A stretch of 64,000 nucleotides of DNA from Thiothrix fructosivorans (GTDB lineage: Bacteria; Pseudomonadota; Gammaproteobacteria; Thiotrichales; Thiotrichaceae): NCBI RefSeq assembly GCF_017349355.1, contig NZ_JAFMPM010000006.1, positions 1,798,001-1,862,000 on the forward strand. Reading direction: 5' to 3'. Under the pieces are notes generated by a model. It saw nothing but the letters and a program-made list of their open reading frames with translations. It was not told the origin of the DNA and made no database searches. Numbering within the stretch: the first letter of the stretch is position 1; every line of letters begins with the position of its first letter. Shown piece after piece: positions 27,800 to 42,023 of the stretch. The position numbers and the translations under genes are program-made.

Positions 27800-27987
27800 C
27801 AGTCGTTCCTCCATTGTTTGTTTTTATTGATTAGCTTTATTTGCTGGTGTTTATTTATGACGTGTCCGATGTGTTTTGTCACCAGCGCGTTTGAGTGTAT
27901 CGTTTGTTTAATTAATAATCGCTTAATAGTGGCAAATTTTACAGCTTGCCGTTGATCAGCTAAATTCGCTTCATCTCATGGAACTGC

Positions 27988-28016
27988 ATGACAGTTGGAC
28001 GTTCAAACGGTATACT
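27988..28016 (+). promoter_or_regulatory. Predicted ssrA promoter
   Basis: ATGACA (27988-27993) and TATACT (28011-28016) with 17-base spacing, giving a leader of about 25 bases before the tmRNA 5' end, which RNase P would remove. Confidence 0.6.
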
Positions 28017-28046
28017 GGGTCATTCAGCAGGTTTTGCAGAAACTTC

Positions 28047-28411
28047 GGGGGCGACTTGGCTTCGACGTGGATTACAAAGTCTGGGGAGCATGTAGTGGAT
28101 GTGGTGACCACTTAAACACTAGTCACAAACAATAGTCGCAAACGACGACTCTTACGCTCTCGCCGCTTAATAACCGGTAGATAGCTGTCTGATCGCTACT
28201 GTGCTTATGCAGTACGAATATTCAGGCATCATCCAATCATAAGATCGTGCGGGAGGCTCGCCCAAGGCCAAACCACTAAACAGTATTGGGACAGCCTGTG
28301 AGCAGCCTGTCAGTTGGCGGCAATCGGGTTAAACAAATGACTGACTAAACATGTAGTAGCCTTCAGATGGAGGATTTGCGGACGCGGGTTCAATTCCCGC
28401 CGCCTCCACCA
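28047..28411 (+). ncRNA. ssrA: Transfer-messenger RNA
   Basis: The 365-base RNA rescues stalled ribosomes by trans-translation. The 5' end GGGGGCGACTTGGCTTCGAC pairs with the 3' end CGCCTCC before an encoded CCA, giving a 7-bp acceptor stem with one G-U. The T-arm GCGGGTTCAATTCCCGC is intact. The tag frame starts at GCA 28138 and encodes ANDDSYALAA followed by TAATAA (28168). The integrative element begins immediately after the CCA, so the mature RNA is unchanged by the insertion. Confidence 0.97.
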
Positions 28412-28413
28412 AA
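28398..28413 (+). repeat. attL: left 16-bp direct repeat in the tmRNA 3' end
   Basis: CGCCGCCTCCACCAAA forms the 3' acceptor strand and CCA of ssrA and recurs exactly at 42008-42023. Identity ends on both sides, as expected for an integrase core site. Confidence 0.9.
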
Positions 28414-28447
28414 TACCAATTTCATGCAGTATCATGAAGACTCACAA

Positions 28448-28481
28448 CCCCTTACAGGCGGCAATCTGTAAGGGGTTTTTT
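28448..28481 (+). terminator. Element-borne terminator for ssrA
   Basis: A perfect 10-bp stem (CCCCTTACAG / CTGTAAGGGG) followed by TTTTTT, 36 bases after the tmRNA 3' end and inside the element. It replaces the native terminator, which insertion has displaced to 42028. Confidence 0.9.
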
Positions 28482-28523
28482 GTTGCATGGTGTATCAATG
28501 GGTGTCATGACATCTTACGAATT

Positions 28524-28545
28524 TGTGGGTATTGTTGCGGGTATA
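28524..28545 (+). repeat. Probable integrase arm-type site, left
   Basis: A 22-base segment built of two GGGTAT half-units (TGTGGGTAT and TTGCGGGTATA). It matches 20 of 22 bases with 41924-41945 at the other end of the element. A further inverted copy (ATACCCAC) lies at 28564-28571, at the integrase start. Such repeated short sites flanking both att cores are typical arm-binding sites. Confidence 0.6.
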
Positions 28546-28573
28546 CCCGACTTTCAGAAAATGGATACCCACA

Positions 28574-29794
28574 ATGAAGCGCAAACTTACCGACACAGCC
28601 GCAAAGAATGCCAAACCAACGCCAGACGGCAAGCCGAAGAAATACAGCGACGGGGGCGGGCTGTTACTGTTGGTAAATCCCAACGGTTTGAAGTACTGGC
28701 GATATGTCTACAGGATGGATGGCAAAGAAAAAACGCTATCCATTGGCAGTTATCCAGAAATCAGCCTGAAGGATGCACGGTTACTGCACGAAGAGGCACG
28801 CGCCTTGCTTGCCCGTGGTGTTGACCCATCGCAGCACAAGCAAGCCACCAAGGGCGCTAGGGTGGCAGAATCGGCTAACACCTTTCAAGCCGTGGCTACT
28901 GAATGGCTTGTGAAGTTCACAGCAGACCAAGTGCCAGAACACACCGACCGGCAGAAACGGCGGCTAGAACGTCACGTTTTCCCGTGGATAGGCGGGCGCA
29001 TCATTGGGGAAATTGAGCCACCGGATATTTTAGCCGTGCTGCGACGTATCGAAGCGGCTGGAACGCTGGAAACCGCACACAGGGTTAAAACTATCATAGG
29101 GCAGGTGTTCCGCTATGCCGTGGCGACAGGTCGGGCGGTACGTGACCAAACCGCAGACCTGAAAGGCGCACTGCCACCCGCAAAAGGCAACCACTTTGCA
29201 GCGATCACAGACCCGAAGGAAATAGGGGAACTATTGCGGGCTATGGCTGGCTACCGTGGGGCTATTGAAACCTGCATAGCTTTGCAGTTGTCGGCTTACC
29301 TGTTCACCCGACCGGGCGAACTCAGACAAATGGAATGGGCAGAGATAGAAGGTGATGTGTGGACAATCCCAGCGGAAAAGATGAAGGCAGGGCGTGTGCA
29401 TGTAGTGCCATTGTGCAAACAGGCATTAGCTTTGCTGGGAGAAATGCGACCGCTAACAGGTAAACGGCGCTATGTGTTCCCGTCCCGCACGGATACCAGC
29501 AAGCCAATGAGCGCTAATACAGTGAGGTCGGCACTGGTACGGCTAGGCTATGAAAGCGACACGATGACCGCACACGGATTTAGAGCGCTTGCTAGTACCC
29601 GACTGTATGAGATGGGCTTTCATTCCGACCTGATAGAAAAGCAACTAGCCCACAGTATTGGTTCTGAGGTTCGCAGGGCTTACGACCGCTCACAGCACCT
29701 AGACCAACGTACAGCCATGATGCAGCAATGGGCGGATTATCTGGACAGTTTGCGGGATGGTGCGCAGGTCATACCGATACGGCGGGCAAGTTAG
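28574..29794 (+). CDS. int: P4-type tyrosine integrase
   Basis: From ATG 28574 the protein has about 406 residues. The N-terminal DUF4102 arm-binding domain reads DGGGLLLLVNPNGLKYWRYVY and YPEISLKDARLLHEEARALL. The catalytic domain has the arginine in LFTRPGELRQMEW, HGFRALAST (HxxR) and the C-terminal VRRAYDRSQHLDQR with the likely nucleophilic tyrosine. The family inserts elements into tRNA and tmRNA 3' ends, as found here. The start codon lies inside the left arm-site cluster, which suggests that integrase may autoregulate. Confidence 0.96.
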   Translation: MKRKLTDTAAKNAKPTPDGKPKKYSDGGGLLLLVNPNGLKYWRYVYRMDGKEKTLSIGSYPEISLKDARLLHEEARALLARGVDPSQHKQATKGARVAESANTFQAVATEWLVKFTADQVPEHTDRQKRRLERHVFPWIGGRIIGEIEPPDILAVLRRIEAAGTLETAHRVKTIIGQVFRYAVATGRAVRDQTADLKGALPPAKGNHFAAITDPKEIGELLRAMAGYRGAIETCIALQLSAYLFTRPGELRQMEWAEIEGDVWTIPAEKMKAGRVHVVPLCKQALALLGEMRPLTGKRRYVFPSRTDTSKPMSANTVRSALVRLGYESDTMTAHGFRALASTRLYEMGFHSDLIEKQLAHSIGSEVRRAYDRSQHLDQRTAMMQQWADYLDSLRDGAQVIPIRRAS

Positions 29795-29813
29795 CCAAGC
29801 TACATCAACAGAG

Positions 29814-29841
29814 AGCCGGGCATTGTTCCGGCTTTTTTTTG
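29814..29841 (+). terminator. Terminator after the integrase gene
   Basis: AGCCGG / CCGGCT stem with loop GCATTGTT and eight T residues. Almost the same sequence, in the same orientation, closes the DUF927 gene at 41549-41573. Confidence 0.85.
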
Positions 29842-29924
29842 CCTGCAATTCAGTGAGTTAGCCAAGCTATGATGCAGCACACAAAAATATAAAATTAATT
29901 TTCTGTTGGGAACACTGAAATTCA

Positions 29925-30060
29925 GGGGTAACAGGGGTAACAGTAAGAAAAAGAGAGTTTGTATACATTCTTTTTCTTTTATATTCAGTGGTTTATCTTG
30001 TTACCCCTCTGTTACCCCGAAACGAAAAAAAGGGGTAACAGAGGGGTAACAGGGGTAACA
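29925..30060. repeat. Left iteron block: seven GGGGTAACA copies
   Basis: GGGGTAACA occurs at 29925, 29934, 30032, 30043 and 30052 on the plus strand, and inverted (TGTTACCCC) at 29999 and 30010. The inverted pair and the following two direct copies form a perfect 20-bp inverted repeat (29999-30018 and 30032-30051) around a 13-base A-rich loop. It resembles an iteron-type replication origin or a partition/transfer site. The whole interval 29795-30207 has no gene. Confidence 0.85.
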
Positions 30061-30207
30061 GGCAAAGCAGCACACCAGCATGGCTAATCCTGAAAAGCAG
30101 GCATTCAACACCCAACGGCGAACCCTTCACAGTCAAAACCCATCTATTAATGTTTTGCATGGCGGAAATGCCGATTATGGCGCATCTCGTTTTTTAAGGA
30201 TTCGCAC

Positions 30208-30399
30208 ATGCTGCCAATTAAGAAAGTTTCGGAAATGACCACCCTAGCGCCTGCATCAATCCGCAGGAAATACCGGGCTGGCACATTCCCTGCACCATTG
30301 AAACTGTCAGAACGGCGCTATGGATGGCGTGAAAGCGACGTACAAGGATGGCTCGACAAGTTGGAGGCTGTGACCAATGGCAACGAAATCCAGCCGTAA
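30208..30399 (+). CDS. AlpA-family regulator / excisionase-like
   Basis: A 63-residue MerR-like winged-helix protein: LPIKKVSEMTTLAPASIRRK, then FPAPLKLSERRYGWRESDVQGWL, the pattern of AlpA/Xis-type proteins. These activate integrase or act as excision factors in P4-like elements. It follows the iteron block and overlaps the next gene by 23 bases. Confidence 0.8.
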   Translation: MLPIKKVSEMTTLAPASIRRKYRAGTFPAPLKLSERRYGWRESDVQGWLDKLEAVTNGNEIQP

Positions 30400-30637
30400 A
30401 AAAGCCGTCATTCAGGTACTAACTGCCTTGTTGCAACGTCCGCACAAGACAAGCGAACTCGACCAGCTTCTCAACTGGAGAAATTCACCACAAGCCGTGC
30501 TTGATTTGCGTCATCGCGGGTTTGAGATTTTGACCACTTACGATAGCGACAGACGCGGGATTTACAGCCTCCCGAACACCGAAAAACCCAAAGTTTACAA
30601 ATTTCTAGGAGAACATCATGCCAGTTTTAAGCATTGA
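30377..30637 (+). CDS. Small helix-turn-helix-like protein
   Basis: An 86-residue basic protein (KTSELDQLLNWRNSPQAVLDLRHRGFEILTTYDSDRRGIYSL) with the helix and wing pattern of a small winged-helix DNA-binding domain; similar proteins accompany phage regulators. Overlaps the AlpA-like gene before it and the gene after it. Function unknown. Confidence 0.55.
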   Translation: MATKSSRKKAVIQVLTALLQRPHKTSELDQLLNWRNSPQAVLDLRHRGFEILTTYDSDRRGIYSLPNTEKPKVYKFLGEHHASFKH

Positions 30638-31022
30638 ATTGACCGAAACCGAATACAGCCTTTTGTTGAATAAGGCGAACAGTTGCGATTTGCAGCAAGT
30701 CACCCGTGTTGCACTCGATCAATATTTTCACTCGCACCGCTTCACAGACGAAAACCTTCCGATCTTGGATTTGAGCGGGCATCGCAAGGCAGCAGCGGCG
30801 TTACAGGGTTCGCGTGTTGATCCTCGTTTGCCAGTCGCACCGAATCGCTACGAAACCGGGAATGACGGACGCTGTATTTACGAAGACGATGCAGCTTTTG
30901 ACCGTGCGGTTTCCGCTCACCAGTGGATTCTCAAACGCCACAGCGCGGAAAAAGCCACATTTGCACGCAAGAGAAGCGAGGGCGTGGTTAACGCTTTCGG
31001 CGGCATTACTTGCACCCTATAA
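30618..31022 (+). CDS. Hypothetical protein of the element
   Basis: A 134-residue soluble protein. The first part (LSIELTETEYSLLLNKANSCDLQQVTRVALDQYF) is helical and could be a ribbon- or helix-type DNA-binding fold; the rest has no recognised motif. It overlaps the previous gene by 20 bases and has AGGAG upstream, so it is expressed with the AlpA-like operon. Unknown function. Confidence 0.5.
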   Translation: MPVLSIELTETEYSLLLNKANSCDLQQVTRVALDQYFHSHRFTDENLPILDLSGHRKAAAALQGSRVDPRLPVAPNRYETGNDGRCIYEDDAAFDRAVSAHQWILKRHSAEKATFARKRSEGVVNAFGGITCTL

Positions 31023-31033
31023 CGTCAAATCGG

Positions 31034-31070
31034 CGGTAGTTTTGCCGAAACCTACCGTCAAAAACTACCG
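31034..31070. repeat. Inverted repeat between element genes
   Basis: Perfect 10-bp arms CGGTAGTTTT and AAAACTACCG separated by 17 bases, just after the gene ending at 31022. A longer imperfect inverted pair (ACGTCAAATCGG near 31022, CCGATTTTTGACGT near 31150) encloses it. Possible transcription stop or protein-binding site; no T-run follows. Confidence 0.5.
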
Positions 31071-31189
31071 CTCCGTTTGCCACTCCAATTTCATGGTTAA
31101 GGCATTGTAAATTAATGGAAATTTACGATTATTTGCCGGAAAACCTTCCGATTTTTGACGTGTGGTTTCCTAATGATTTGTGCGAGTAA

Positions 31190-31768
31190 ATGACAATGCG
31201 AAAAACGGGAAAAATCACCCTAGAAGACCTGTCAAAACGATCCATCAAGGGGCTTTCCAAAAAGATTGAAGCCGCCTTGAATGGGGCAACCGATGGCGCG
31301 TTTGAAGGCTTGCCCGTAGTGGCGACACGATGCAATTACGGCGGTTTGCGCTTCTGGTGGCAATGCCCGAAGTGTGGGCGGCGCGTTGGTGTCTTGTATG
31401 CGTTGCCTTGGAAGTTCAAGGAGTGGGCGTGTCGACATTGCCATGAAGCGGTTCATGCAAGCTCACGGGCTGGCAGGTACAAGCGCGAATATAACAAGGC
31501 GACAGGGCTTTATTTACGCTACAGCCGAAAGCGACCGGAAGAACTGCGACCCTTCGATTTCCTGAGCATGGATGACAAGCCAAGGCGAATGTCTTGGAAG
31601 CGTTGGCTAAAGATTTTCATCAAGCAGGCGACGGCGCGGAACAAGGCGCTCACATTTCATTTGAGTGCGCTGGATTGGGCGCATAGGGGCTGCATGAGCC
31701 ATGAAGAAGTCATTCGGGAACTGAATCGCATCAGTGCAGCGCAGAGGGCGGCAACTCAGGGCGGATAA
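31190..31768 (+). CDS. Zinc-ribbon protein of the element
   Basis: A 192-residue basic protein with a zinc-finger pair CPKCGRRV and CRHCHEAV about 25 residues apart (WWQCPKCGRRVGVLY...EWACRHC), flanked by RYNYGG-like sequence, then a Lys/Arg-rich helical C-terminus. The layout suggests nucleic-acid binding. I do not recognise a named family. ATG 31196 is an alternative start. A terminator-like hairpin follows the stop codon. Confidence 0.6.
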   Translation: MTMRKTGKITLEDLSKRSIKGLSKKIEAALNGATDGAFEGLPVVATRCNYGGLRFWWQCPKCGRRVGVLYALPWKFKEWACRHCHEAVHASSRAGRYKREYNKATGLYLRYSRKRPEELRPFDFLSMDDKPRRMSWKRWLKIFIKQATARNKALTFHLSALDWAHRGCMSHEEVIRELNRISAAQRAATQGG

Positions 31769-32088
31769 GCACCCCAAACCCGTGTTTTTGGGGTTTTGAG
31801 GCTTTCCGCGAATTCTCCCCGACCTTTCCCGACCTGAAAACTTAGGCGCGTGGTGGCGGATTGCAGCAAATCACCATTTAAGCCTCTGATGGTACTTGCA
31901 TTATGGTGGTGACGAACCCCGAAACTGGGGCGCGTTTCTGCAAACGACACCTCTGAATATTAGAAAAAACTTATCTAGTTCCTGGACTAAATCACGCATC
32001 CTCATTTTGAGGAAATGGGCGAATCTTTGGGGCGATTGCCCGCGCAACTCTCAAAGAATCACGCACGTTTGCTAACTGTAAAAATCAG
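31769..32088. other. Intergenic region with hairpin and possible antisense regulatory RNA
   Basis: About 320 bases. CCCCAAA / TTTGGGG (31772-31793) followed by TTTT is a likely terminator for the zinc-ribbon gene. The rest (about 31800-31960) is rich in short inverted pairs and lies where P4-like elements often encode a C4-type antisense RNA and a poorly supported reading frame on the opposite strand (31756-31950). I cannot confirm an RNA from sequence alone. Confidence 0.3.
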
Positions 32089-32328
32089 TCAAACTTTATT
32101 CAGGCTTTTTTTTATTGCCGTGTCTAGTTCCAGTCGTATCAATTCAATCACACGCGATTCAGTAAGGGGTGATTCATTCCCGCTTGTGCCTGCAAGCCAT
32201 TCATCAAGCATCAAGACTATCTGAGCATTCAGCGACCTACCGTTAGCCTTGGCTAAGGTCTCAATCCTTGTCCGTGTTTCGGGTTCAAGGCGCAATGGGT
32301 AAGGTGTTGGTCGGGTTTCTGCATTCAT
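32089..32328 (-). CDS. Arc-like ribbon-helix-helix repressor 1
   Basis: A 79-residue protein with the Arc/MetJ pattern: TPYPLRLEPETRTRIETLAK and then ANGRSLNAQIVLMLDEWL. In this fold the beta-strand residues (YPLRL) read DNA as a dimer. It is divergent from a second ribbon-helix-helix gene at 32448, sharing the sequence PTPYPLRLEP. Operator-like palindromes lie between them. The arrangement recalls divergent phage repressors such as Arc and Mnt. Confidence 0.8.
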   Translation of the reverse strand: MNAETRPTPYPLRLEPETRTRIETLAKANGRSLNAQIVLMLDEWLAGTSGNESPLTESRVIELIRLELDTAIKKSLNKV

Positions 32329-32342
32329 TTTTAGATCATATC

Positions 32343-32436
32343 AATAGGACTTGTTTAGAGTCACTAAGTCAATGTGAGTCCATTGGACTCTTCAGTAAAA
32401 GAGTGTTATCATAAGGAATCAAAACAAGTCCATATT
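32343..32436. promoter_or_regulatory. Palindromic operators between the divergent repressor genes
   Basis: Three related sites: AATAGGACTTGTTT (32343), the perfect palindrome GAGTCCATTGGACTC (32376-32390) and AAAACAAGTCCATATT (32421). The outer two are inverted copies of each other and all share AGTCC/GGACT. They are candidate binding sites for the two ribbon-helix-helix proteins, controlling both directions. Confidence 0.7.
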
Positions 32437-32447
32437 AGGAATATTAC

Positions 32448-32615
32448 ATGAGCAACCAAGCTAATAGACCAACGCCTTACCCGCTACGCCTTGAACCCGG
32501 ACTTTCCGAATGGGTGAAGGCACGGGCAAAGGACAACGATAGAAGCATTAACGCAGAGCTTAACAGATTGATTAAGCAAGCAAAGGAGGCGGAAAAACAG
32601 GCTTACATGCCGTAG
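32448..32615 (+). CDS. Arc-like ribbon-helix-helix repressor 2
   Basis: A 55-residue protein: RPTPYPLRLEPGLSEWVKAR, then AKDNDRSINAELNRLIKQAK. This is a complete ribbon-helix-helix domain with the same strand sequence as the divergent gene. AGGAAT precedes ATG 32448. It heads the membrane-protein operon and probably controls it. A CGCCCC/GGGGCG hairpin without T-run follows (32625-32642). Confidence 0.75.
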   Translation: MSNQANRPTPYPLRLEPGLSEWVKARAKDNDRSINAELNRLIKQAKEAEKQAYMP

Positions 32616-32711
32616 AAACGAAAACGCCCCAATGAAGGGGCGCTTAAGGACTGCAAGGTGTTGGAAGCACCAAACAGCCAATTACTGACCCACAATCAAT
32701 AGGTAACAGCA

Positions 32712-33149
32712 ATGTTAAATACTACCTCAAAACCGCCCAAAATGGGCAATATTCCACTTGCAGCAGTTCAGCAATGGATTGAAGCCGACGCGGAAAACAC
32801 CCCTGAGTCATGGGGCTATGTTTCCGGCTTGTTAAGCGGCATTCTGATTTTCCGCCCTGACATCAGCGAAGAACTGATGTTTTTGCATCAAATCGCCACA
32901 CAGCGCGGATTGATGGCAAGTCAGGCAACCGGCGGCAAATACTCGCTTCTCACCCCGAAAGAACGCATCGACGCTCTTTCTGACACCCTGAGCCGCATGA
33001 AGGCGCATTCGGTCATCTTGTCGCAATTCTTCACCCGACCGGCAACGAAACAAGCCGCGATTTCTGGCATGAATGCCGAAGTTGAAAACATGCTGGTTCT
33101 TTGGGAAAAGATCAAAGCAGACGTTGAAGAAATGGAGGTGCAGCAATGA
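32712..33149 (+). CDS. Hypothetical helical protein of the element operon
   Basis: A 145-residue soluble, helical, acidic protein (WIEADAENTPESWGYVSGLLSG, RIDALSDTLSRMKAHSVILSQ, VENMLVLWEKIKADVEEMEVQQ). No recognised motif. Its last codons overlap the start of the next gene (ATGA), so it is the first gene of a coupled series running to 35141. Confidence 0.6.
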   Translation: MLNTTSKPPKMGNIPLAAVQQWIEADAENTPESWGYVSGLLSGILIFRPDISEELMFLHQIATQRGLMASQATGGKYSLLTPKERIDALSDTLSRMKAHSVILSQFFTRPATKQAAISGMNAEVENMLVLWEKIKADVEEMEVQQ

Positions 33150-34078
33150 GCAAATACGCACCTCTCACCCTACGCGCCATTGCAGCAATCACGTCTGCAA
33201 CTTCGGCAGCAGCAGCATACCCAGCAGCGTCTAATCTGTTCGGCATGTTGCCCGGTGGCGTTATGGTCGCATCAAGCGCGGCGGTAATTTTTGGAGGCTG
33301 GCACATCGTCGCCACCTCAGGGGATACCGATCACCGCATTGTGTCCGGTGTTACAGCGGCGCTATTCGCTGGCGTGATGACCGTGGGCATTCATAGCAGT
33401 GGTCAACTGAAAACCGCAACACAAGCCACCAGCACGGCGGAACAAGCCGACACGCTATACATGAATCAGGAATCAACCCGCATGGCAACGCTGGCAACCG
33501 TGGCGGCTGAATTGCGGGCGACGCAGAAAAGCAAATACCCGGCGGAATATGCCGCGTTACAAGCGCAAGTCGACAAGCTTTCAACCCCAGCGGTTCGCAC
33601 TCCTACCGCAAGCCAAGAGGCAACCGCAACAACTGGCAGCATTCAGCAATGGATTGCAGCGAGTGTGTTTGAAATCGTCACACCTGCATTGCTGCTATTG
33701 GCTGGCATGTTTTCGCACCGTAAACAGCGTGACAACACCGCGTTAACACCTGTTAACAGTGCGTTAACACAAGAAAAACAAGAGGTTGTAATTTCAGCGT
33801 TAACAGACCCGTTAACAGCGTTAACAGACGATAACACCGCGTTAACAGCCGCCGACAACGAGTTAACAGACCCGTTAACAGCGTTAACACGTCGCTCTAT
33901 TGAGCCAACATCTGAGGGTTTCATCACCGCAAAACAGGTTATCAGTGCGACAAATTGCACCGATAGACAGGCGCGTGACGCAATCAAGCAAGCAACTGAT
34001 GACGGCATTTTAGAGAGTATCGGTTCTGGCAACGCTACCCGCTACCGCTACAGCAACAAACTGAGGATTGTAAAATGA
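33146..34078 (+). CDS. Membrane protein with C-terminal winged helix and ALT repeats
   Basis: The 310-residue product has two or three membrane segments in the first 75 residues (YPAASNLFGMLPGGVMVASS, IVSGVTAALFAGVMTVGI) and another near residue 185 (FEIVTPALLLLAGMF). A repetitive segment follows (TALTPVNSALT ... LTDPLTALTDD ... LTDPLTALTRR), then a winged-helix-like domain (ITAKQVISATNCTDRQARDA, IKQATDDGILESIG). A membrane-tethered DNA-binding protein is the simplest reading. The repeats correspond to ten GTTAAC palindromes in the DNA. ATGA overlaps link it to both neighbours. Confidence 0.65.
   Translation: MSKYAPLTLRAIAAITSATSAAAAYPAASNLFGMLPGGVMVASSAAVIFGGWHIVATSGDTDHRIVSGVTAALFAGVMTVGIHSSGQLKTATQATSTAEQADTLYMNQESTRMATLATVAAELRATQKSKYPAEYAALQAQVDKLSTPAVRTPTASQEATATTGSIQQWIAASVFEIVTPALLLLAGMFSHRKQRDNTALTPVNSALTQEKQEVVISALTDPLTALTDDNTALTAADNELTDPLTALTRRSIEPTSEGFITAKQVISATNCTDRQARDAIKQATDDGILESIGSGNATRYRYSNKLRIVK
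33742..33888. repeat. Ten GTTAAC palindromes inside the 33146-34078 gene
   Basis: GTTAAC starts at 33742, 33752, 33763, 33799, 33811, 33820, 33841, 33862, 33874 and 33883, always followed by A. Nine copies read xxG TTA ACA (Leu-Thr); the second is in another frame (GTT AAC, Val-Asn) yet keeps the same bases. This suggests the DNA sequence itself matters. Confidence 0.85.
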
Positions 34079-34584
34079 GCTTAATCCGCGCAACTAATAG
34101 CAGTATGCCCAACCTTGTGGGGCTTGGTTTATTGATCGGGGGCGGTGCATCTGCCCTATCTGTAATGGTGGGCGGCAATCCGATTTTGAACTTTCCCGGT
34201 AGAGAAGTCGCTGATTTTGCATTCGGTGCAGCAACAGCCGTTACAGGCTTTTTTGTACTGAAAGAAGGTTCAGCGGTAGCGGCATGGTTAGCCGGTGCTT
34301 TGGTCGCTGGCGCAATGGTTTACGCGGGTTTGAGCGTGGACACCGACCAAGCGGGGCGAATGCTCACAGCAACAATGAGTGCAGCGAAATCAGGCGCAGC
34401 CAGTGCAGCGGATAGCGTAGCGAATGGCACTAGCAGCACAAGCCAATACCGCGCAATTCGCCAACTGACAGCCGCAGAATCCGCAGAATGTGACGCTAAC
34501 CTAAAGTGGACTCGCACCGATCAAGGGCGACTCAATTGCTCAATTGCCAGTGACGGCAAGCGTTATGTGTGGAGCGCGAACTAA
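34075..34584 (+). CDS. Small membrane protein of the element
   Basis: A 169-residue protein with three likely membrane helices (residues 15-35, 45-62 and 66-85, rich in Gly/Ala), then an Ala/Ser-rich linker and a C-terminal soluble part (AAESAECDANLKWTRTDQGRLNCSIASDGKRYVW) with two cysteines that could form a disulfide. Unknown function. Overlaps its neighbours by ATGA and TAATG junctions, so it is made together with the M23 peptidase. Confidence 0.6.
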   Translation: MSLIRATNSSMPNLVGLGLLIGGGASALSVMVGGNPILNFPGREVADFAFGAATAVTGFFVLKEGSAVAAWLAGALVAGAMVYAGLSVDTDQAGRMLTATMSAAKSGAASAADSVANGTSSTSQYRAIRQLTAAESAECDANLKWTRTDQGRLNCSIASDGKRYVWSAN

Positions 34585-35141
34585 TGAGCCTAGCCACCTA
34601 TTTTAGCCCTGTTGCTACATGGTCGATTTCCATTGCCTTGGGCGTGGCAATCATCCCGCCAATGTATCAGGGCTTTGTGTTTGGTGGCGGTGAAAACTTT
34701 CTGGAACAAGCGCGTCAAGAGGTCGCTTACCTGTTTTCGTGGGCATCACCTAGCGCAATCCGCAAGCCATTAGAGGGTGATGCGGTCATCACATCACCTT
34801 ACGGAATGCGTAAACACCCAGTAACAGGACTGCAAGCCATGCATAACGGCAAGGATTACCGTTGCAACGTTGGGAAACCCGTGGGCGCTATTGCCGATGG
34901 CGTTATCAATTTTGCAGGCATGGCGGGGCATTCCGGCTTGCTGGTAGCAGTCGACCATGCTGATGGTATGCAGTCGCTCTATGCACATCTAAACGCCACA
35001 GATATGCAAGCGGGCAAGCAAGTCAGAGCGGGCGATGTTATCGGCGCGTGTGGCAATACCGGGCGTTCTACAGCACCACACCTGCATTTAGGCATAAAAC
35101 AACACGGGCAATTCATCGACCCGACCACTAAAGGACTCTAA
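34584..35141 (+). CDS. M23-family peptidase (LytM-like)
   Basis: From ATG 34584 (MSLATYFSPVATWS), which overlaps the preceding stop codon, the protein has about 185 residues. An N-terminal hydrophobic segment is followed by the M23 zinc-peptidase domain: SPYGMRKHPVTG, HNGKDYRCNVGKPVGAIADG (the H...D ligands), AHLNATDMQAGKQVRAGDVIG and PHLHLGIK (the HxH motif). All zinc ligands are visible. It should cut peptidoglycan cross-bridges. In this operon it probably opens the cell wall locally for DNA or particle passage. Confidence 0.88.
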   Translation: MSLATYFSPVATWSISIALGVAIIPPMYQGFVFGGGENFLEQARQEVAYLFSWASPSAIRKPLEGDAVITSPYGMRKHPVTGLQAMHNGKDYRCNVGKPVGAIADGVINFAGMAGHSGLLVAVDHADGMQSLYAHLNATDMQAGKQVRAGDVIGACGNTGRSTAPHLHLGIKQHGQFIDPTTKGL

Positions 35142-35144
35142 GCA

Positions 35145-36026
35145 ATGGAAAATGAAGCCATTTTCAACAGAATTGATGCACGTCTTGACCGTATCGAAAA
35201 GCTCACCCGCAAAACCTACCGCCAAACAATGCCGGAAATGCCGTGGTTATTCGCGGCAATCGCAGGCGTGGCAGTGGTTAGCCTTGGCTATGTGCTCTAT
35301 CCGCAACTGCCCACAGAGATTAAAGACGTAATCGAACCACGGGTAGACGTGGCACAAAACAAGTTTTACAGCATCGGGCAATGGTTTGCTGATTACAGCG
35401 GCAATGTTGACCGTTCATACACGCTACCCAGTGGCACGTTAACGATTATTAGCCTAACGCCTTTGCAGTCATGCCGGTGGCGTTCTGCATTGCTGGCGCG
35501 GGAATCCAGCGGCAACTATCAGCACACAGGCAACCAGTTTGGCTATTTTGCAGGTTATGCAATGGGGGCTGAATCACTGGCAATCGTCGGACTGGTGAAG
35601 CAATCCGCTTTTGATGATGCACCCCGCCATGTTCGCAACGGTACAGATCAAACCGCATGGCTCAATAACCCGCAAAACTGGCAATTGCGCGGCGGCAAAC
35701 AAGCGTTTCTGCATGACAACCTCTTGCAAGACCGTGCCGTAACCGTGCTGGCTAATACCAACATTGCCGACGGATTCAAGAGCCGCGTCCTTCTCGAATC
35801 CCAACAAGAGAAAATCGCAGGGTTCGCAGCGGCGGCGCATTTGAAAGGGCTGACAGCGGCAATTTCTTGGTACGCAAGAGGGAAGGACTCCCACGACGCG
35901 AACGGTACAAACACCAGCGACTATGCCGCGATGGGTGAAGCATCCATTAACAAACGCTCGAATTTATGCGCGGAAAATACCAGACAAGTACCTTCATGGC
36001 TGAAGTGGCTGGAAGTGAAGAATTGA
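35145..36026 (+). CDS. Membrane-anchored lysozyme-like protein
   Basis: A 293-residue protein with an N-terminal coiled coil (IDARLDRIEKLTRKTY), one membrane helix (residues 33-52, LFAAIAGVAVVSLGYVLY) and an outer domain with LLARESSGNYQHTGNQFGYF, then AGYAMGAESLAIVGL. The Glu followed by Ser-Gly-x-Tyr and a Gly-Tyr-Phe-x-x-Tyr-x-Met-Gly segment is like transglycosylase or phage lysozyme catalytic regions; Glu near residue 120 would be the acid. Together with the M23 peptidase it would attack both glycan and peptide bonds. Assignment by motif only. Confidence 0.65.
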   Translation: MENEAIFNRIDARLDRIEKLTRKTYRQTMPEMPWLFAAIAGVAVVSLGYVLYPQLPTEIKDVIEPRVDVAQNKFYSIGQWFADYSGNVDRSYTLPSGTLTIISLTPLQSCRWRSALLARESSGNYQHTGNQFGYFAGYAMGAESLAIVGLVKQSAFDDAPRHVRNGTDQTAWLNNPQNWQLRGGKQAFLHDNLLQDRAVTVLANTNIADGFKSRVLLESQQEKIAGFAAAAHLKGLTAAISWYARGKDSHDANGTNTSDYAAMGEASINKRSNLCAENTRQVPSWLKWLEVKN

Positions 36027-36058
36027 AGGGCGAACACGCGGCATTTCCCGTGATTTGC

Positions 36059-36091
36059 TAAGAAACACTTAAGAAACACCTAAGAAACGCT
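36059..36091 (+). repeat. Three 11-bp direct repeats upstream of 36122
   Basis: TAAGAAACACT, TAAGAAACACC and TAAGAAACGCT follow one another without gap at one helical turn each, 31 bases before the next start codon and just ahead of an AT-rich TTATAAATTA. Probably an operator for an element-borne or host regulator. Confidence 0.65.
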
Positions 36092-36121
36092 TATAAATTA
36101 GTCAAAAAGGTATTATCACCC

Positions 36122-36913
36122 ATGACAACAGACATTAATAAACCAGACGATACAGAGCTACTACTGCAAAACATGCAGAGAAAATTAACTGAATCATCCT
36201 ATCGTGACAATAAAGGGCGGGCAGCAATAGCCAAACTGCTGACCTCTGACAACGCTATCAGATTGATCGAATCCACAGCCGACAAACTGGGCATTGAGCC
36301 TATCACCGTGGGGCGTGGCTTAGCCTTGGCTATGTGCCAGTACCGCACCGGCTCACAGATCAACGTGACCGACCTAGGCAACGCAATCAACCCGGATGGC
36401 GTAGGTGTGCGTTTTGGCAGAGAAACCATTATCCCGCTTGCCATTGAACTGGGCTTTATCGTCAAGACCGGCGAACGCTCTACCGCGTGGGCGGCATACG
36501 ACAAGATCGGACACAAGCCCGGTTTGCTGGATGGCATCAAGTCAGCATTTACAGCAACACCCGAAAAGCTGGCAGCAAAAGCGGAATCAGAACGCGCCTA
36601 CGCTGAAAAGTGCAAGCTCGACACAGCACGGAAGGCTGAAGCATTCGCCCAACGTCGCAAGGAGGCGTTAATGCGTACCGTAAACGCTGCACAAGAGGCT
36701 GAAAAGCTGGCAACAAGCCTACCGGGGCAACCTGAAACCATTGGCGACAAGATCAAAGCAAACCCAGCGGCGGCGGTACTAATCGGCTTTCTTGCCGTTG
36801 GCATTGGTGCAGCGGTGATGACCTCAGAACCACAGCAACAAGCCTTAGCCCCATTGATTGCCAATGTAAACGGCTCACCCACACTCGACCCGCGTATTCT
36901 GGAAGGAGAATAA
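36122..36913 (+). CDS. Tail-anchored helical protein upstream of the FtsK-like gene
   Basis: A 263-residue protein. The first 140 residues (AAIAKLLTSDNAIRLIESTADKLGI, GLALAMCQYRTGSQ, FIVKTGERSTAWAAYDKIG) look globular. A charged coiled coil follows (AAKAESERAYAEKCKLDTARKAEAFAQRRKEAL), then a membrane helix near residue 220 (AAAVLIGFLAVGIGAAVM) and a short tail. Unknown family. It ends 3 bases before the FtsK-like gene, so the two products probably work together at the membrane. Confidence 0.6.
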   Translation: MTTDINKPDDTELLLQNMQRKLTESSYRDNKGRAAIAKLLTSDNAIRLIESTADKLGIEPITVGRGLALAMCQYRTGSQINVTDLGNAINPDGVGVRFGRETIIPLAIELGFIVKTGERSTAWAAYDKIGHKPGLLDGIKSAFTATPEKLAAKAESERAYAEKCKLDTARKAEAFAQRRKEALMRTVNAAQEAEKLATSLPGQPETIGDKIKANPAAAVLIGFLAVGIGAAVMTSEPQQQALAPLIANVNGSPTLDPRILEGE

Positions 36914-36916
36914 ACC

Positions 36917-38158
36917 ATGAGAATCGGAACGTTTGACTTAGATCAATTTTACCCTGAAACCCATTTGCAGACAGTGACAGCCGCAACCCTATTGACCGTG
37001 CCAGCATTGGCTACAGGTAGCTTTGTGGCTGGCGTTAGCGCGTTAGGGCTGGCATGGGTAGCGCGGCAATCCATAACCGCGTGGAAGCGTGACAATTGCT
37101 TATTAGGTAGTGACCTTGATGCAGAGGATACCCGCGAACATGCAGCAGTCAACACCAATAACGACGTTACCGCACGGCTACGCAAAGCAACTGGCAACCA
37201 AGACTTAACCGCTATCGAAAGCCGTTCTGCACAATATCGCCTACTCAGTGTTGCCAATGATGACCCCGCACAAATTGCCAAGGTATTACCGCGTATTGCC
37301 AGCGTGTTAGGTGTTGCCCCTGATGCACTGGGCTGGATACCCACAGCAGGGCGTGACCTGTCTATCATCCTTGCCCCATTGGAGCGGGCAGAGTGGCTAC
37401 CCGTGCCGTTTAATGAATCCGCACTGACACAGGGTAAGTTGATCGGATACGTTGGGCGCGATGTGTTGGGAAATCACGTCACTTACAGCCGCCAAGATGC
37501 ACCACACATGCTGATTAGTGGCACAACCCGCAGCGGCAAAACTGAGGCAATCCGCGCTGATCTTCAATCCATGCGCTTATCTGGCTTGCGTCCTGAGATT
37601 CACATTATTGACGCGAAAGGCACACTATGCCGTGAACAATGCGCAACATTCACCACGGATATGGGCGAAGGACTGGCAACCCTGCAAGCCATTGTTGAGC
37701 GGGCGCGTGAACGTATCCGGGAAATCGTGGCGACTGGTTGCGATAACTGGTTTCAGTACCGTGCAAAATGCCCTGATGTTTGTCCCGCTCCCATCATGGT
37801 GTACGTGGATGAATACCCACAGTTACGCAAGCAAGACAAAGAGGCGGTGGAAACCGTAGTGGGTGAATTAACCCGTGTTCATGCCGCGTCTGGCGTGTTT
37901 GTCACGCTTGGCATTCAAAAGCCCAAAGCCGACACCTTGCCGACTGAAATCCGCGATATGTTTGATATTCGCCTAGCGATGCGCGTACCCGATAGCAAAG
38001 CGTCAATGGTGGCAATTGATGAACCCGGCGCGGAAGGCTTACCCGGTGCTGGCGCGTTTATGTTTCGCAACGGTGGGGATTCTGTTGTACGTGGGCGTGG
38101 TGCATTGATCGAAGGGGCTGATAAAGCTTCTGGTGCAGAACCAGCGTCAACCGCGTGA
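36917..38158 (+). CDS. FtsK/HerA-type DNA-translocating ATPase
   Basis: A 413-residue protein. Residues about 18-55 form one or two membrane helices. The motor domain has Walker A SGTTRSGKTEAIRADL (near residue 203) and Walker B PIMVYVDEYPQL (near residue 293), and later VHAASGVFVTLGIQKPKADTLPTEIR, which matches the FtsK/SpoIIIE '[13 protein letters not shown]' motif. It is shorter than chromosomal FtsK and lacks the gamma domain. Such proteins pump double-stranded DNA through a membrane, as in TraB/TraSA of Streptomyces elements, or serve as packaging ATPases in membrane-containing phages. Confidence 0.85.
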   Translation: MRIGTFDLDQFYPETHLQTVTAATLLTVPALATGSFVAGVSALGLAWVARQSITAWKRDNCLLGSDLDAEDTREHAAVNTNNDVTARLRKATGNQDLTAIESRSAQYRLLSVANDDPAQIAKVLPRIASVLGVAPDALGWIPTAGRDLSIILAPLERAEWLPVPFNESALTQGKLIGYVGRDVLGNHVTYSRQDAPHMLISGTTRSGKTEAIRADLQSMRLSGLRPEIHIIDAKGTLCREQCATFTTDMGEGLATLQAIVERARERIREIVATGCDNWFQYRAKCPDVCPAPIMVYVDEYPQLRKQDKEAVETVVGELTRVHAASGVFVTLGIQKPKADTLPTEIRDMFDIRLAMRVPDSKASMVAIDEPGAEGLPGAGAFMFRNGGDSVVRGRGALIEGADKASGAEPASTA

Positions 38159-38288
38159 AGGCATGATTTTTCAGGCGATCAATAAGAGTTATATCTGATT
38201 TTCCATATGTTTCAAACCACTCTATTACGGCGGCAAGTTACGGGGTGATGCAGCATGGTTGCACTTAAAACAGAAAGGACAAACTCAC

Positions 38289-38489
38289 ATGACAATTGAC
38301 ATTACCAACTGGCAAAGCCGCAAGCTCACAGATAAAGAGATGGCGGCAATCTATGGCGTATCCCGCGCAACTATATGGCGTTGGGCGAAAGCTGGGGCAA
38401 TACCCAAGGCTCAAAAGATCGGCGCAAATACCGCAAGATGGGACGGGGCGGAAGTCGCTAAAAGCATGGAAAAAACAGCCACCCCATAA
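38289..38489 (+). CDS. Second AlpA-like regulator
   Basis: From ATG 38289 a 66-residue protein with a helix-turn-helix pattern (KEMAAIYGVSRATIWRWAKAG, then IPKAQKIGANTARWDGAEV), like AlpA/MerR-type excisionases. It lies between the FtsK-like gene and the replication genes and has AGAAAGGA upstream. It may control the replication module. Confidence 0.75.
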   Translation: MTIDITNWQSRKLTDKEMAAIYGVSRATIWRWAKAGAIPKAQKIGANTARWDGAEVAKSMEKTATP

Positions 38490-38542
38490 ACAGAAATGCC
38501 CGATAGGTGAATCAGACCGTACCGGGCAGAAAGGATTTAAAA

Positions 38543-39589
38543 ATGAAGCTTGATTATACCATATTCGATAGCCTGCATAACCCGCAAGGCGCAAAAAATA
38601 CCGCATCATGGGCGGATGTATGCCGGATGCTGCAAGACGTGCCAGCCTACGCAAGCAAGGCAGAACAGCCACTTATCAAGATGGGCGTTTTTGAAGGAGA
38701 TTCACGCGGGGCAGGGCATGGCTTGACCAATATTAGCGGAATTGAAATTGATTATGACGCGGGCAAAGTGACCCCACACAGCGCGGCTAAGTTATTGCGT
38801 CAAGCCGGTATTGAATGCGTGGTATGTAGCACGTTCACCAGCTCACCCGATTGCCCAAAATGGCGCGTATTCGCCCCCACAAGCCGCGAATTACCCGCAG
38901 AATTACGCGCCTACCTTGTTGCTGCACTGGATAGCGTTCTGTTAGGGATTGCAGCGCGTGAGAGCTACACCGCAAAGCAAACATTTTTCTTTGGGCGCAA
39001 CCCTGAAAGCAATTACGTGTTCATGCACTTGCGGGGTGAGTTTGTTGACGTGGCATTAAAGACCATAGCAAACGCGGCGTATACAAAGGACAAGCGCGAA
39101 AAGGCAGAGCGGGAACAGTTAGCCGCTACTACTTGCCTCCGTGCCGAAACCCAACGAAACCGCAAAGCAGCGGGGCGACTCACTGAGGGGCAAATATCCC
39201 CGATTACAGCCTTTAGTGATGCGCATGACGTGCGGTCTATCCTCAAAGCGCACGGATACCGGGAATCAGGAAAGAAGTTTGTATCTTCGGCATCATCCAG
39301 CGGCATGGCTGGCGTGGTGATCCTGCAAGGTGATGATGGGCGGGAACGGGCATTCTCACACCACAGCAATGACCCCATAGCAGACGGGCTTGCACATGAT
39401 GCGTTTGACCTGTTTTGCATTCTCGACCACGGCGGCGACGAATGGGCGGCGATACAAGCAGCGGCTAAGTTACTCATCACCGCCAACGGCGAAAGCCTGC
39501 ACTCACACAATCGCAACGCTTACCGCCAAGCGCAACAAGCCGCAAAAGCACAAGCAGCACTCGACAAACTTAAAGGGGTGGCAGTATGA
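38543..39589 (+). CDS. AEP-type primase / prim-pol-like protein
   Basis: About 348 residues from ATG 38543 (MKLDYTIFDSL). The N-terminal half has the archaeo-eukaryotic primase pattern of phage and plasmid replication proteins: SGIEIDYDAGKVTPHSA (the DxD metal site), CSTFTSSPDCPKWRVFAPTS, and SYTAKQTFFFGRNPESN. The C-terminal part (FVSSASSSGMAGVVILQGDDGRERAFSHHSNDPIAD) matches the small domain that follows it in such proteins. It should make primers for element replication. Its end overlaps the DUF927 gene by 4 bases (ATGA). Confidence 0.75.
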   Translation: MKLDYTIFDSLHNPQGAKNTASWADVCRMLQDVPAYASKAEQPLIKMGVFEGDSRGAGHGLTNISGIEIDYDAGKVTPHSAAKLLRQAGIECVVCSTFTSSPDCPKWRVFAPTSRELPAELRAYLVAALDSVLLGIAARESYTAKQTFFFGRNPESNYVFMHLRGEFVDVALKTIANAAYTKDKREKAEREQLAATTCLRAETQRNRKAAGRLTEGQISPITAFSDAHDVRSILKAHGYRESGKKFVSSASSSGMAGVVILQGDDGRERAFSHHSNDPIADGLAHDAFDLFCILDHGGDEWAAIQAAAKLLITANGESLHSHNRNAYRQAQQAAKAQAALDKLKGVAV

Positions 39590-41523
39590 CCGCTACAGCA
39601 CAAACAAACCCGGTGAATGAGCTACTGGCAGAACTCACCACACAAGCGCAAGGCGTAACGCTGGCAACCTATCAGGATTTTCTGCACACAGTCGCCTTGT
39701 TGGTAGTCGATGGCACAATTGACCCCATTCAGCGGGAATCTGTCATTAAAGCACTGACGGGCAACGGTCACGAACTTGGGGGTAAACGTTTAATCACCAA
39801 TGCTTTGACGGCAGCGGAAAAGCAGATTAAGCGCGATATGGAAACCCCACAGGGCGGTATTAAAGGCGGGCGGGGTTTGTACTCACTGAGAGATAACGGC
39901 GTGTGGTACAGCAAACCGACGAAAGACGGCTATTCAGAACCCGTGTTTATTTCACCTCACCTGAAGGTTATTGCTGAAACTTACGATACAGCAGACGGCA
40001 ATAATGGGCGCTTCATTGAATTCAAAGATACGCGGGGCAGGCTCAAAACGTGGGCAATGCCTGCCATATTCGCGGCTGGCGACGGTACAGAGATTGCTAA
40101 ATACTTGCGTAACGCTGGCTTGAACTATGTTTATGGATTCGACAAAGAGGTTATTGACTACCTGCTATCCTCAGAGGTCACAGACTTGATGACATGCAGC
40201 GACCGCACCGGATGGGTGAATGATGTGTTTGTCACACCGAAGATAACCTACGGCGAAAATGCAGAGAGCTACACCTACCAGCCAACTAGCGCGATTGATA
40301 ACAAGATCGGGCAAGCGGGAAAACTGGCAGACTGGCAAGCCAATGTTGCACGGTATGCGCAAGGCAACCCGTTGATGATGGTAAACACATCTCAGGCTTT
40401 TGCGGGTACGTTGCTCAAAAAGGCGGGAATGATGGGTTTCGGTTTGCATGATTGGAGTAGTTCCACAGATGGCAAGTCAACCACCCTGAAAATTGCTTGC
40501 AGCGTATGGGGTAGCGAATTCTGGCAACAGTGGCTATCTACCTCAGTCGGGATTGAGGGCAGCGCATACGCCCACAATGATTTGTTTCTGGCGCTTGATG
40601 AAATCGGCGAAGCTACCGCGCAAACGGTTAGCGCCACAGCCTACGCACTGGCAAACGGCGAAGGTAAGCGACGGGGCGGGCGTGACGGTAACGCCAAAAT
40701 AACGAAGAAATGGCGCGTGGTGTTTTTGTCTACTGGTGAAAAGTCGCTAGATACACTGATGAAGGAAGCGGGCATGGTTACAAGGGCAGGGCAAGAGGTG
40801 CGCATGATTAACGTGCGTAGCGATGCATGGAAGCATGGCGCGTTTAATGATTTGCACGGTATGGAAAACGGTTCTGTTTTCGCTGAAATGCTGGAAGCCA
40901 ACACTAAGCGGTATTACGGCACGGCGGGCGATGCGTGGCTTTATGCGATCACGCAACCGGGCGGGATACCTGATGACATTAGCCAATCTGTTGACGCAAT
41001 CCGGGAGACAATGCTACCCGAAGGCGCAAGCGGGCAAGTACGGCGTGTGGCTCGACAATTCGCCCTAATTGCTTACGCTGGCGAACTGGCAACAAAGCAC
41101 GGTATTACCGGATGGAAAGAGGGAGATGCAACAGCAGCGGCTAAAGAGTGCTTTGACTTGTGGGTAGATGACTTCGGCGGCGCAGATGGCAAGCGCGAAC
41201 ACCGCCAAGTGCTAGAAGCCGTTGAATCATTCCTGTTTGCCAGCATTTCACGGTTTCATGATTTGCGGGTTTCTGACAATTCGATTTATGCCGTTAAAGA
41301 TCGTGTCGGGTTCGTGCGTAGCGGCGTGGATGGCGGGCATGAATACCTTGTGCCAGCAACAGAGTTAACAAAGCTTGCAGAGGGGTACAGTAGAGAGCAA
41401 ATCATTACCGCGCTACGCATGGCAGGAATGCTTAACGAACCCGGCAAGGATGGCAAAAGCGCGATAGTGTTACCCCGTGCAGTCGGTAAACAGATGAAGG
41501 GCTTTATCATCACCCCAAAATAA
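39586..41523 (+). CDS. DUF927-family helicase-like ATPase
   Basis: A 645-residue protein of the DUF927 family found with phage and plasmid primases. The core includes GLYSLRDNGVWYSKP, TAWAMPA-like (KTWAMPAIFAAGDGTEI), TCSDRTGWVNDVFVTP, a P-loop in SSSTDGKSTTLKIA (about residue 295) and Walker B NDLFLALDEIGEA. Further GGRDGNAKITKKWRVVFLSTGEKSL is typical. It is probably the replicative helicase working with the primase encoded just upstream. A terminator and the right iteron block follow. Confidence 0.85.
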   Translation: MTATAQTNPVNELLAELTTQAQGVTLATYQDFLHTVALLVVDGTIDPIQRESVIKALTGNGHELGGKRLITNALTAAEKQIKRDMETPQGGIKGGRGLYSLRDNGVWYSKPTKDGYSEPVFISPHLKVIAETYDTADGNNGRFIEFKDTRGRLKTWAMPAIFAAGDGTEIAKYLRNAGLNYVYGFDKEVIDYLLSSEVTDLMTCSDRTGWVNDVFVTPKITYGENAESYTYQPTSAIDNKIGQAGKLADWQANVARYAQGNPLMMVNTSQAFAGTLLKKAGMMGFGLHDWSSSTDGKSTTLKIACSVWGSEFWQQWLSTSVGIEGSAYAHNDLFLALDEIGEATAQTVSATAYALANGEGKRRGGRDGNAKITKKWRVVFLSTGEKSLDTLMKEAGMVTRAGQEVRMINVRSDAWKHGAFNDLHGMENGSVFAEMLEANTKRYYGTAGDAWLYAITQPGGIPDDISQSVDAIRETMLPEGASGQVRRVARQFALIAYAGELATKHGITGWKEGDATAAAKECFDLWVDDFGGADGKREHRQVLEAVESFLFASISRFHDLRVSDNSIYAVKDRVGFVRSGVDGGHEYLVPATELTKLAEGYSREQIITALRMAGMLNEPGKDGKSAIVLPRAVGKQMKGFIITPK

Positions 41524-41548
41524 CGCCACACAAGCGACCACCACAGAG

Positions 41549-41573
41549 AGCCGGGCATGTTCCCGGCTTTTTT
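41549..41573 (+). terminator. Terminator after the DUF927 gene
   Basis: AGCCGGG / CCCGGCT stem with loop CATGTT and a run of T. Near-copy of the terminator after the integrase gene. Confidence 0.85.
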
Positions 41574-41578
41574 GTGCC

Positions 41579-41690
41579 TGTTACCCCTGTTACCCCGAAA
41601 ACACCCCAAGGGGTAACAGGGGGTAACAGCTTAAGCTATTGATAAATAACAGATAAAAAAGCCTGTTACCCCTGTTACCCCTGTTACCCC
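41579..41690. repeat. Right iteron block: seven GGGGTAACA copies
   Basis: TGTTACCCC at 41579, 41588, 41664, 41673 and 41682; GGGGTAACA at 41610 and 41620. The order is two reverse, two forward, three reverse, the exact complement of the left block (two forward, two reverse, three forward). The remaining interval to attR (41691-42007) has no gene but holds further GGGTA-type arm sites. Confidence 0.85.
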
Positions 41691-41923
41691 GAAATCACAG
41701 CAATAGCCAAGGAAAACAATATATTTTTTTCTTGTGTGTGGCTTGCCAGAGGTTTGCTTTTTGTTCGCTTTTTGTGGGTACGACTTGCGGCATGTTCCCG
41801 CAATACCCGCAACCATACCCGCATCCACTAATTTCACAGAATTAGGGCTTACCCTAGGGTGTGGCGTAATGGCGTGTTTCGGGATGGCGATAGACTCGCT
41901 GAAAACAGGGTGAACCATGAAGA

Positions 41924-41945
41924 TGTGGGTATAATTGCGGGTATA
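41924..41945 (+). repeat. Probable integrase arm-type site, right
   Basis: Near-copy (20 of 22 bases) of 28524-28545, followed by another GCGGGTATAA at about 41958-41967. Inverted relatives (ATACCCGC) occur around 41800-41822. Confidence 0.6.
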
Positions 41946-42007
41946 AGTGAAAACGTGGCGGGTATAAACAAAGTAATATCATGATGTTACGCGCTGAGTG
42001 TGGTAGT

Positions 42008-42023
42008 CGCCGCCTCCACCAAA
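42008..42023 (+). repeat. attR: right 16-bp direct repeat
   Basis: Exact copy of the tmRNA 3' end (CGCCGCCTCCACCAAA). It is followed within 5 bases by the native ssrA terminator, so this is the chromosomal side of the insertion. Confidence 0.9.

Follow-up and report, generated by a model that had tools for sequence, protein, structure and literature searches.

The 64-kb stretch of Thiothrix DNA analyzed here (the window, 64,000 nucleotides) carries at its tmRNA gene an integrative element that would appear to be self-replicating and plasmid-like, and whose membrane operon may encode a relaxase-independent pump for double-stranded DNA (dsDNA): on the sequence evidence we give this reading an even chance. 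We infer that element DNA may pass between cells. Canonical Gram-negative conjugation combines a relaxase with a T4SS; we propose more tentatively, and rate a little below an even chance, a new class marked by relaxase-free dsDNA transfer in a Gram-negative, filament-adapted setting, with an exchangeable cassette (repeats plus winged helix) and an interchangeable peptidase and motor domain.

Organization of the element

The host genome (4.36 Mb, family Thiotrichaceae) contains an exact 16-bp direct repeat, CGCCGCCTCCACCAAA, the att sequence, at 28398-28413 and 42008-42023: the element therefore comprises positions 28414-42023 (13,610 bp). These limits lie within 16 bp of those in a first-pass annotation of the same DNA, whose placement of an element with att repeats at the tmRNA gene is confirmed. 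The target is the 3' end of the tmRNA gene, repeated exactly over 16 bp at the right border. A 190-nt probe joining the two flanks finds an unbroken match (93%) in a congener (G015) and only two separate halves in the element's own genome; the site in G015 is thus empty. In a further genome (G011) a related replication block adjoins genes for a YheT-like hydrolase and HisC, the same right-hand neighbors as those of the window element: this is consistent with integration at the same site, the G011 contig stopping inside the element and the tmRNA lying on a separate contig. Beyond the left border, window 26957-27649 encodes a cytochrome c-like protein whose N-terminal part is long, alanine-rich and repetitive.

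Features are as follows (window coordinates, strand).

28047..28411, +: tmRNA gene, integration target (ARAGORN; Rfam RF00023)
28398..28413, unstranded: left att repeat, CGCCGCCTCCACCAAA (exact 16-bp repeat)
28523..29794, +: P4-type tyrosine integrase with arm domain (Pfam Arm-DNA-bind_3, Phage_int_M, Phage_integrase, 2e-20 to 3e-33)
29925..30061, unstranded: left array of likely iterons, six copies of GGGGTAACAG in both orientations
30208..30399, +: AlpA-type regulator/excisionase (Pfam 5.5e-9)
32089..32328, -: Arc-like ribbon-helix-helix regulator, divergent to the operon (Pfam 3e-4)
32448..32615, +: second Arc-like ribbon-helix-helix protein (Pfam 6e-5)
32712..33149, +: first gene of the membrane operon, no recognized family and no relative found; 4-nt overlap with gene A
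33146..34078, +: protein A, three predicted membrane helices, linker and C-terminal winged helix (hydropathy, AF2, fold neighbors)
33742..33889, unstranded: array of ten GTTAACA repeats in gene A, proposed clt-like site (synonymous-codon shuffles)
34075..34584, +: protein B, predicted membrane helices and C-terminal domain with two invariant cysteines (ten-row alignment, hydropathy)
34569..35141, +: membrane-anchored M23 endopeptidase (Pfam 2e-28, hydropathy)
35145..36026, +: membrane-anchored lysozyme-like protein (PHROG 27932 'tail lysozyme', 4e-15; invariant E120)
36122..36913, +: protein E, helical N-terminal part, long helix, one C-terminal membrane helix (eleven-row alignment, hydropathy)
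36917..38158, +: membrane-anchored FtsK/TcpA-type motor, no C-terminal winged helix (Pfam FtsK 2e-9, profile)
38289..38489, +: HTH_17/AlpA-like regulator (Pfam 2e-9)
38507..39589, +: primase-like replication protein (PHROG 256, DNA helicase/primase family, 4e-9)
39586..41523, +: DUF927 primase-helicase ATPase (Pfam 2e-70; PHROG DNA primase 2e-76)
41578..41690, unstranded: right array of likely iterons, seven copies of GGGGTAACAG in both orientations
42008..42023, unstranded: right att repeat

The integrase (57% identical to that of a related locus, L014) is followed by AlpA, small regulators, two Arc-like proteins and then the membrane operon (32712-38158), whose genes overlap or almost abut, with 95 nt separating E from the gene before it and 130 nt following the motor. 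Simple hydropathy analysis predicts membrane helices in A, B, the M23 protein, the lysozyme, E and the motor. The AF2 model of protein E has a mean pLDDT of only 55. Earlier calls of integrase, DUF927, M23 and FtsK are upheld by Pfam and that of a lysozyme by PHROG; for the supposed 'AEP-type primase' (38507-39589) the likeness to primases stands (PHROG helicase/primase, 4e-9), but the AEP label falls, no Pfam AEP family having matched. The first-pass observation is otherwise borne out; the array inside 33146-34078 and the two GGGGTAACAG arrays had been overlooked.

The decamer GGGGTAACAG occurs 13 times, with six copies after the integrase and seven after DUF927, and nowhere else in the 64 kb (0.07 expected); the two arrays are likely replication iterons, and several related elements possess arrays of their own close to replication genes or element ends. 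As in AICEs, a tyrosine integrase and att site at the 3' end of a tRNA-type gene are found together with the element's own replication module (by predicted function a DUF927 primase-helicase and two iteron arrays); as in PICIs and P4 satellites, integrase, AlpA and primase occur together. The decamer (29925-30061, 41578-41690) and the GTTAACA array of gene A have TAACA in common: a common origin or a shared reader is possible.

Capsid, terminase, portal, relaxase and VirB-type genes had been reported absent, and no family of these kinds, nor any coat family, was recognized in the element at threshold in Pfam, PHROG and NCBIfam scans. The VirB4, mating-pair and relaxase genes of T4SS-type ICEs did not appear in the element in the same three collections, neither Zot nor a coat family of inoviruses was matched (the motor matches FtsK and TcpA), and no family for redirecting helper packaging was found in the element. 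PHROG gave no match to a jelly-roll capsid or packaging ATPase, the AF2 models of A and E being too uncertain for their folds to be judged. Scans of the element's proteins, among which a capsid, coat protein or relaxase might have been hidden, returned no match to any of the three at threshold, and the modeled structure of A yielded a winged helix only; among solved structures, profile searches with A, with E and with the core of the lysozyme found no meaningful relative. No outer-membrane component was recognized in the element. In the plasmid and phage collections searched, the only matches were to the motor domain, all of them below 33% identity, and the lysozyme had no relative on plasmids.

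Distribution of the membrane module

The gene block singled out in the first-pass annotation recurs in other genomes: of 63 genomes examined from the order to which the host belongs, 11 have the module. The lysozyme profile matched 12 of the 63, the additional match (G002, locus L053) being a prophage-type protein, as are some matches in G425. Among 369 Gammaproteobacteria no genome outside the family matched this profile, the motor profile at 1e-40 gave no further carrier among 398 Pseudomonadota, and the module was found in none of ~700 sampled Pseudomonadota outside the order. The distribution is one family only, and the type genus of that family is filamentous.

Comparison of twelve further loci shows that the membrane operon is a separate module, with integration and replication genes that differ from locus to locus. 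B, lysozyme, E and motor recur at loci with complete sequence, and A at most of them. Motor, E, lysozyme and B are present at L014-L016, L018, L022, L023, L030, L050-L052 and L054; L017 has motor, E, lysozyme and M23, its contig ending short of B and A. Relatives of A were found at L014, L018, L022, L050-L052 and L054, and A is absent from L015, L016 and L030. Replication genes are of the DUF927 type in the window and L017, Toprim with DUF3987 in L014 and L018, a Rep_3 initiator in L015 and Phage_rep_O-like in L051 and L052. AICEs are likewise built by shuffling replication genes against a constant transfer set (PMC3218068).

One 32-kb plasmid-like contig (L054/L077, G425:C176) joins the module with ParA, a MOBP relaxase, TraG-like and TraF-like proteins and a lytic transglycosylase: because relaxase and TraG-like protein lie with it, the module may operate alongside ordinary conjugation or help it. 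A contig from a virus collection (L030/L056) has the module beside a prophage. In two genomes of different genera a second HerA-like ATPase with small partner genes adjoins the module (L050:157-2927; L054:12291-14849), possibly as an accessory part.

Wall hydrolases and motor

The lysozyme domain has an invariant glutamate (E120) in an R-E-S region and is partnered by a second, non-homologous wall hydrolase – M23, CHAP or M15, interchangeably. The M23 partner is a separate gene in the window and fused in L023; CHAP is fused in L014, with similar proteins in L050-L052; M15 is fused in L016 and, in L054, lies on the opposite side of the lysozyme domain (the peptidase search was non-exhaustive at L015, L022 and L030). 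Conservation of the hydrolases at loci with complete sequence points to passage through the wall.

In G004 an IS66-type insertion (L018:5998-8370) breaks up the lysozyme gene of the element's relative, which would leave that copy probably inactive, and the lysozyme/CHAP gene of L051 (8061-9310), one of two copies in G003, is split into two frames, while L050 and L052 read through. Domains related to the lysozyme also lie in large phage proteins from IMG/VR (tail or baseplate by context: L031:8345-11029, L032:1-2022, L033:671-3823), a possible source of the module's domain; these three were rejected as module carriers, the domain being part of large phage proteins.

Against solved structures the motor profile is nearest to TcpA of pCW3 (4.5e-26), followed by FtsK (8e-23), and matched no VirD4/TrwB chain at 1e-3. 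The motor stops after the ATPase domain and is without the C-terminal DNA-reading domain of FtsK. Its N-terminal anchor is kept where the ATPase differs: the first ~75 residues of the L017 motor are nearly those of the window and the remainder is another FtsK type, and in L050-L052 a HerA-like ATPase follows an anchor that resembles the one of L014 (39-41% over 70 residues). Loci related by the motor only (L019-L021 and Moraxella plasmid L026) proved to be DndC/DndD-type DNA-modification clusters and were excluded from the module. At L019, L020 and L021, in three Thiothrix genomes, DndC-, DndD- and FtsK-like genes form a conserved cluster for phosphorothioate-type DNA modification or defense, flanked by HIT-like genes (duplicated in L019); Moraxella plasmid pSKB0120-5 (L026:13087-17185, 27100-31449) has similar Dnd-type genes, broken into pieces by insertion sequences.

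Joint exchange of repeats and winged helix

The AF2 model of protein A reaches a pLDDT of about 80 at residues 242-305, the winged helix, against 49 overall. Fold neighbors are winged-helix regulators of a generic kind (Foldseek E 0.01 or worse); a long-helix match to 8xku (Z 8.8, rmsd 10.9 over 157) was discarded because the model is unreliable in that region. Positive charge follows the third membrane helix, which suggests that the winged helix is cytoplasmic. It is A that carries this domain: the motor has none.

The DNA for the linker that joins the third membrane helix to the winged helix contains GTTAACA ten times within 148 bp, on one strand. The array exceeds every synonymous-codon shuffle (300/300 and 100/100), and the repeats are thus not a by-product of the protein sequence. 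Counterparts of different sequence occupy the corresponding position at other loci: GGACACG in L018, GG(A/C)CACG in L014, GTTGAC in both orientations in L022, CTGCAAT in L050 and CGTTGCA in L051. The window, L014, L018, L022 and L050 have more repeats than their synonymous shuffles, as does L051 when 7-mers are counted; the excess is non-significant by this test in L054, L023 and L052. Inversion of the L022 repeat encodes different amino acids and so again points to the DNA. Repeats with the same core are found also directly 3' of gene A (L050-L052) and in the tail of gene E (L022).

Repeat class tracks the similarity of the winged helix and not that of the membrane part. Window and L018 are 82% identical in the membrane part of A and 40% in the winged helix, and their repeats differ; L014 and L018 are 58% identical in the membrane part and 71% in the winged helix, with near-identical repeats. 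L050 and L051 come from a single genome: the membrane parts are 96% identical, the winged helices 45%, and the repeats differ. DNA identity, 92% up to the linker, falls off sharply over the repeats and the winged helix and recovers to 94.6% in the next 4.9 kb. In another genome, L052 has the L051 cassette (winged helix 97%). By this comparison of sequences, repeats and winged helix have been swapped jointly on two or more occasions, one of them between copies that share a genome, a pattern based on seven loci from few lineages. Such joint exchange is expected if the winged helix reads the repeats and co-resident elements avoid cross-reading. Since A is missing from L015, L016 and L030, and the repeats of L054, L023 and L052 are non-significant, the cassette is not universal.

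Proposed mechanism and alternatives

In the reading that we prefer, protein A, in the inner membrane, would bind the repeats of its own gene and bring the excised circle to the motor, which would push DNA through a channel built with B and E while lysozyme and partner peptidase open the peptidoglycan locally. The tasks united in TraB would be divided, A reading the repeats in the membrane, the motor pumping, and B and E perhaps supplying the rest of the channel. Array and winged helix would together form a self-recognition cassette, the exchange of which would keep related elements apart.

The main route would run from cell to cell along the filament, through the cross-walls, as Streptomyces plasmids spread. 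If the outer membrane in filaments of this type is continuous and does not enter the cross-walls, two inner membranes and peptidoglycan would be the sole barrier, for which the parts of the module would suffice. Thiothrix cells are joined in multicellular filaments (PMC9319827), and a cross-wall route would, if true, account for the module's restriction to a single family. This step, which we infer, is the weakest link of the main reading; an alternative route would be release of DNA followed by competence uptake, as in Thermus transjugation (PMC5365140). If correct, the reading would add a third route to those of actinomycete TraB and Thermus transjugation, and the first such pump tied to bacterial filaments outside the actinomycetes. 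Cassette exchange provides a testable case of an element in which address and reader are one unit – a unit that would let related elements share one cell.

The most serious rival, unlikely in our judgment, is a system for segregation or maintenance in which A tethers the excised circle to the membrane via the repeats, the motor clears copies or pumps them through as the septum closes, daughter cells thereby inherit the element, and the hydrolases are septal, with no intercellular transfer. FtsK motors work at septa, the element has no outer-membrane part, and the swapped cassettes of L050 and L051 match plasmid incompatibility. There is also a precedent: SpdA2 of pIJ101 binds to a set of repeats located in its own gene, and its effect is on segregational stability and not on transfer (PMC4170104). 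Here, too, a putative DNA-binding protein is tied to repeats within its own gene; SpdA2, however, is small and not described as membrane-bound, whereas A is a predicted membrane protein, and the SpdA2 palindrome is conserved among plasmids where the repeats of the module are exchanged. Partition, moreover, needs no dedicated lysozyme and endopeptidase, yet both are conserved.

Somewhat less likely again is secretion followed by uptake, the module expelling DNA and recipients taking it up by natural competence, as for TdtA of Thermus ICETh1, an element of 14.9 kb that resides at a tRNA gene and encodes a hexameric ATPase associated with the membrane (PMC5365140). The two elements share a size of ~14 kb, a tRNA-type site and a membrane-associated motor of the FtsK/HerA superfamily, and ComEC is encoded in the host's own genome, although it is widespread (10 of 14 control genomes). 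ICETh1 has NurA and a restriction enzyme, the partners of TdtA, neither of which was found in the Thiothrix element (Pfam and PHROG scans), and its tdtA operon is described without wall hydrolases or repeat cassette (PMC5365140). An outer-membrane exit pore was not found.

A membrane-containing phage or satellite with an unrecognized capsid, its lysozyme and M23 protein serving DNA entry or exit, had been raised at the first pass and is unsupported here; we regard it as improbable. Integrase, AlpA and primase-helicase are shared with P4-like satellites and PICIs, as, we presume, are iteron arrays with P4; the lysozyme domain is related to phage tail or baseplate lysozymes, and one relative (L030/L056) adjoins a prophage. 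A hidden capsid is nevertheless unlikely: membrane helices are predicted in each of the conserved proteins (A, B, lysozyme, E and motor), none of which matches a capsid or coat family, and the soluble unknowns of the element (30618, 31190 and 32712) are unconserved. Unlike such satellites the element has a membrane pump module, with no packaging-interference or capsid gene recognized; it has no close relative among 50,697 phage records, and some carriers have plasmid replicons (L015, L054).

Least probable of all is a mobilizable element moved by a helper T4SS, with the membrane operon in an accessory role (exclusion or wall remodeling, for example): a VirB4-like gene elsewhere in the host genome (G000:C4:33460-33714), possibly the sign of a T4SS, and the MOBP relaxase, TraG-like and TraF-like proteins beside the module in L054/L077 would fit, but the element has no relaxase match, its own genome has none of the MobA/VirD2 family (the only relaxase family searched genome-wide), and the module has its own motor.

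Relation to known transfer systems

For the preferred reading, a dsDNA pump, the closest functional parallels are AICEs and Streptomyces conjugative plasmids. The hexameric, FtsK-like TraB of Streptomyces recognizes clt repeats of 8 bp and moves plasmid DNA in double-stranded form, and spread through the mycelium requires Spd membrane proteins (PMC12857230; PMC4170104). Like these systems, the Thiothrix element is integrative, has replication modules that can be exchanged, a motor of the FtsK type, short repeats as (here putative) cis sites and membrane accessory proteins, and belongs to a filamentous multicellular host. The cis site is read by TraB in AICEs and presumably by the winged helix here, which – unlike in AICEs – lies on a separate membrane protein; a dedicated lysozyme and peptidase and a Gram-negative host are further differences. 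TraB unites FtsK motor and C-terminal winged helix in one protein, an arrangement that the element does not have, and the NCBIfam TraB model gave 22.7 bits against a cut-off of 800. The likeness is one of function and not of family membership: the minimal AICE-like route first suggested for this element is partly supported, as an analogy (FtsK/TcpA motor, cis array with winged helix). The analogy gains from a conserved transfer-like module with changing replication modules and from the lack of any relaxase, VirB or capsid match.

The nearest solved motor, TcpA of Clostridium perfringens pCW3, links the element to Gram-positive T4SS, and TcpA is a coupling protein suggested to move dsDNA (PMC12857230). 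Unlike in those systems, VirB4, VirB6, VirB8 and relaxase are unrecognized in the Thiothrix element; the bifunctional lysozyme/peptidase proteins of the module resemble the VirB1-like CHAP, SLT and LytM proteins of Gram-positive T4SS (PMC12857230).
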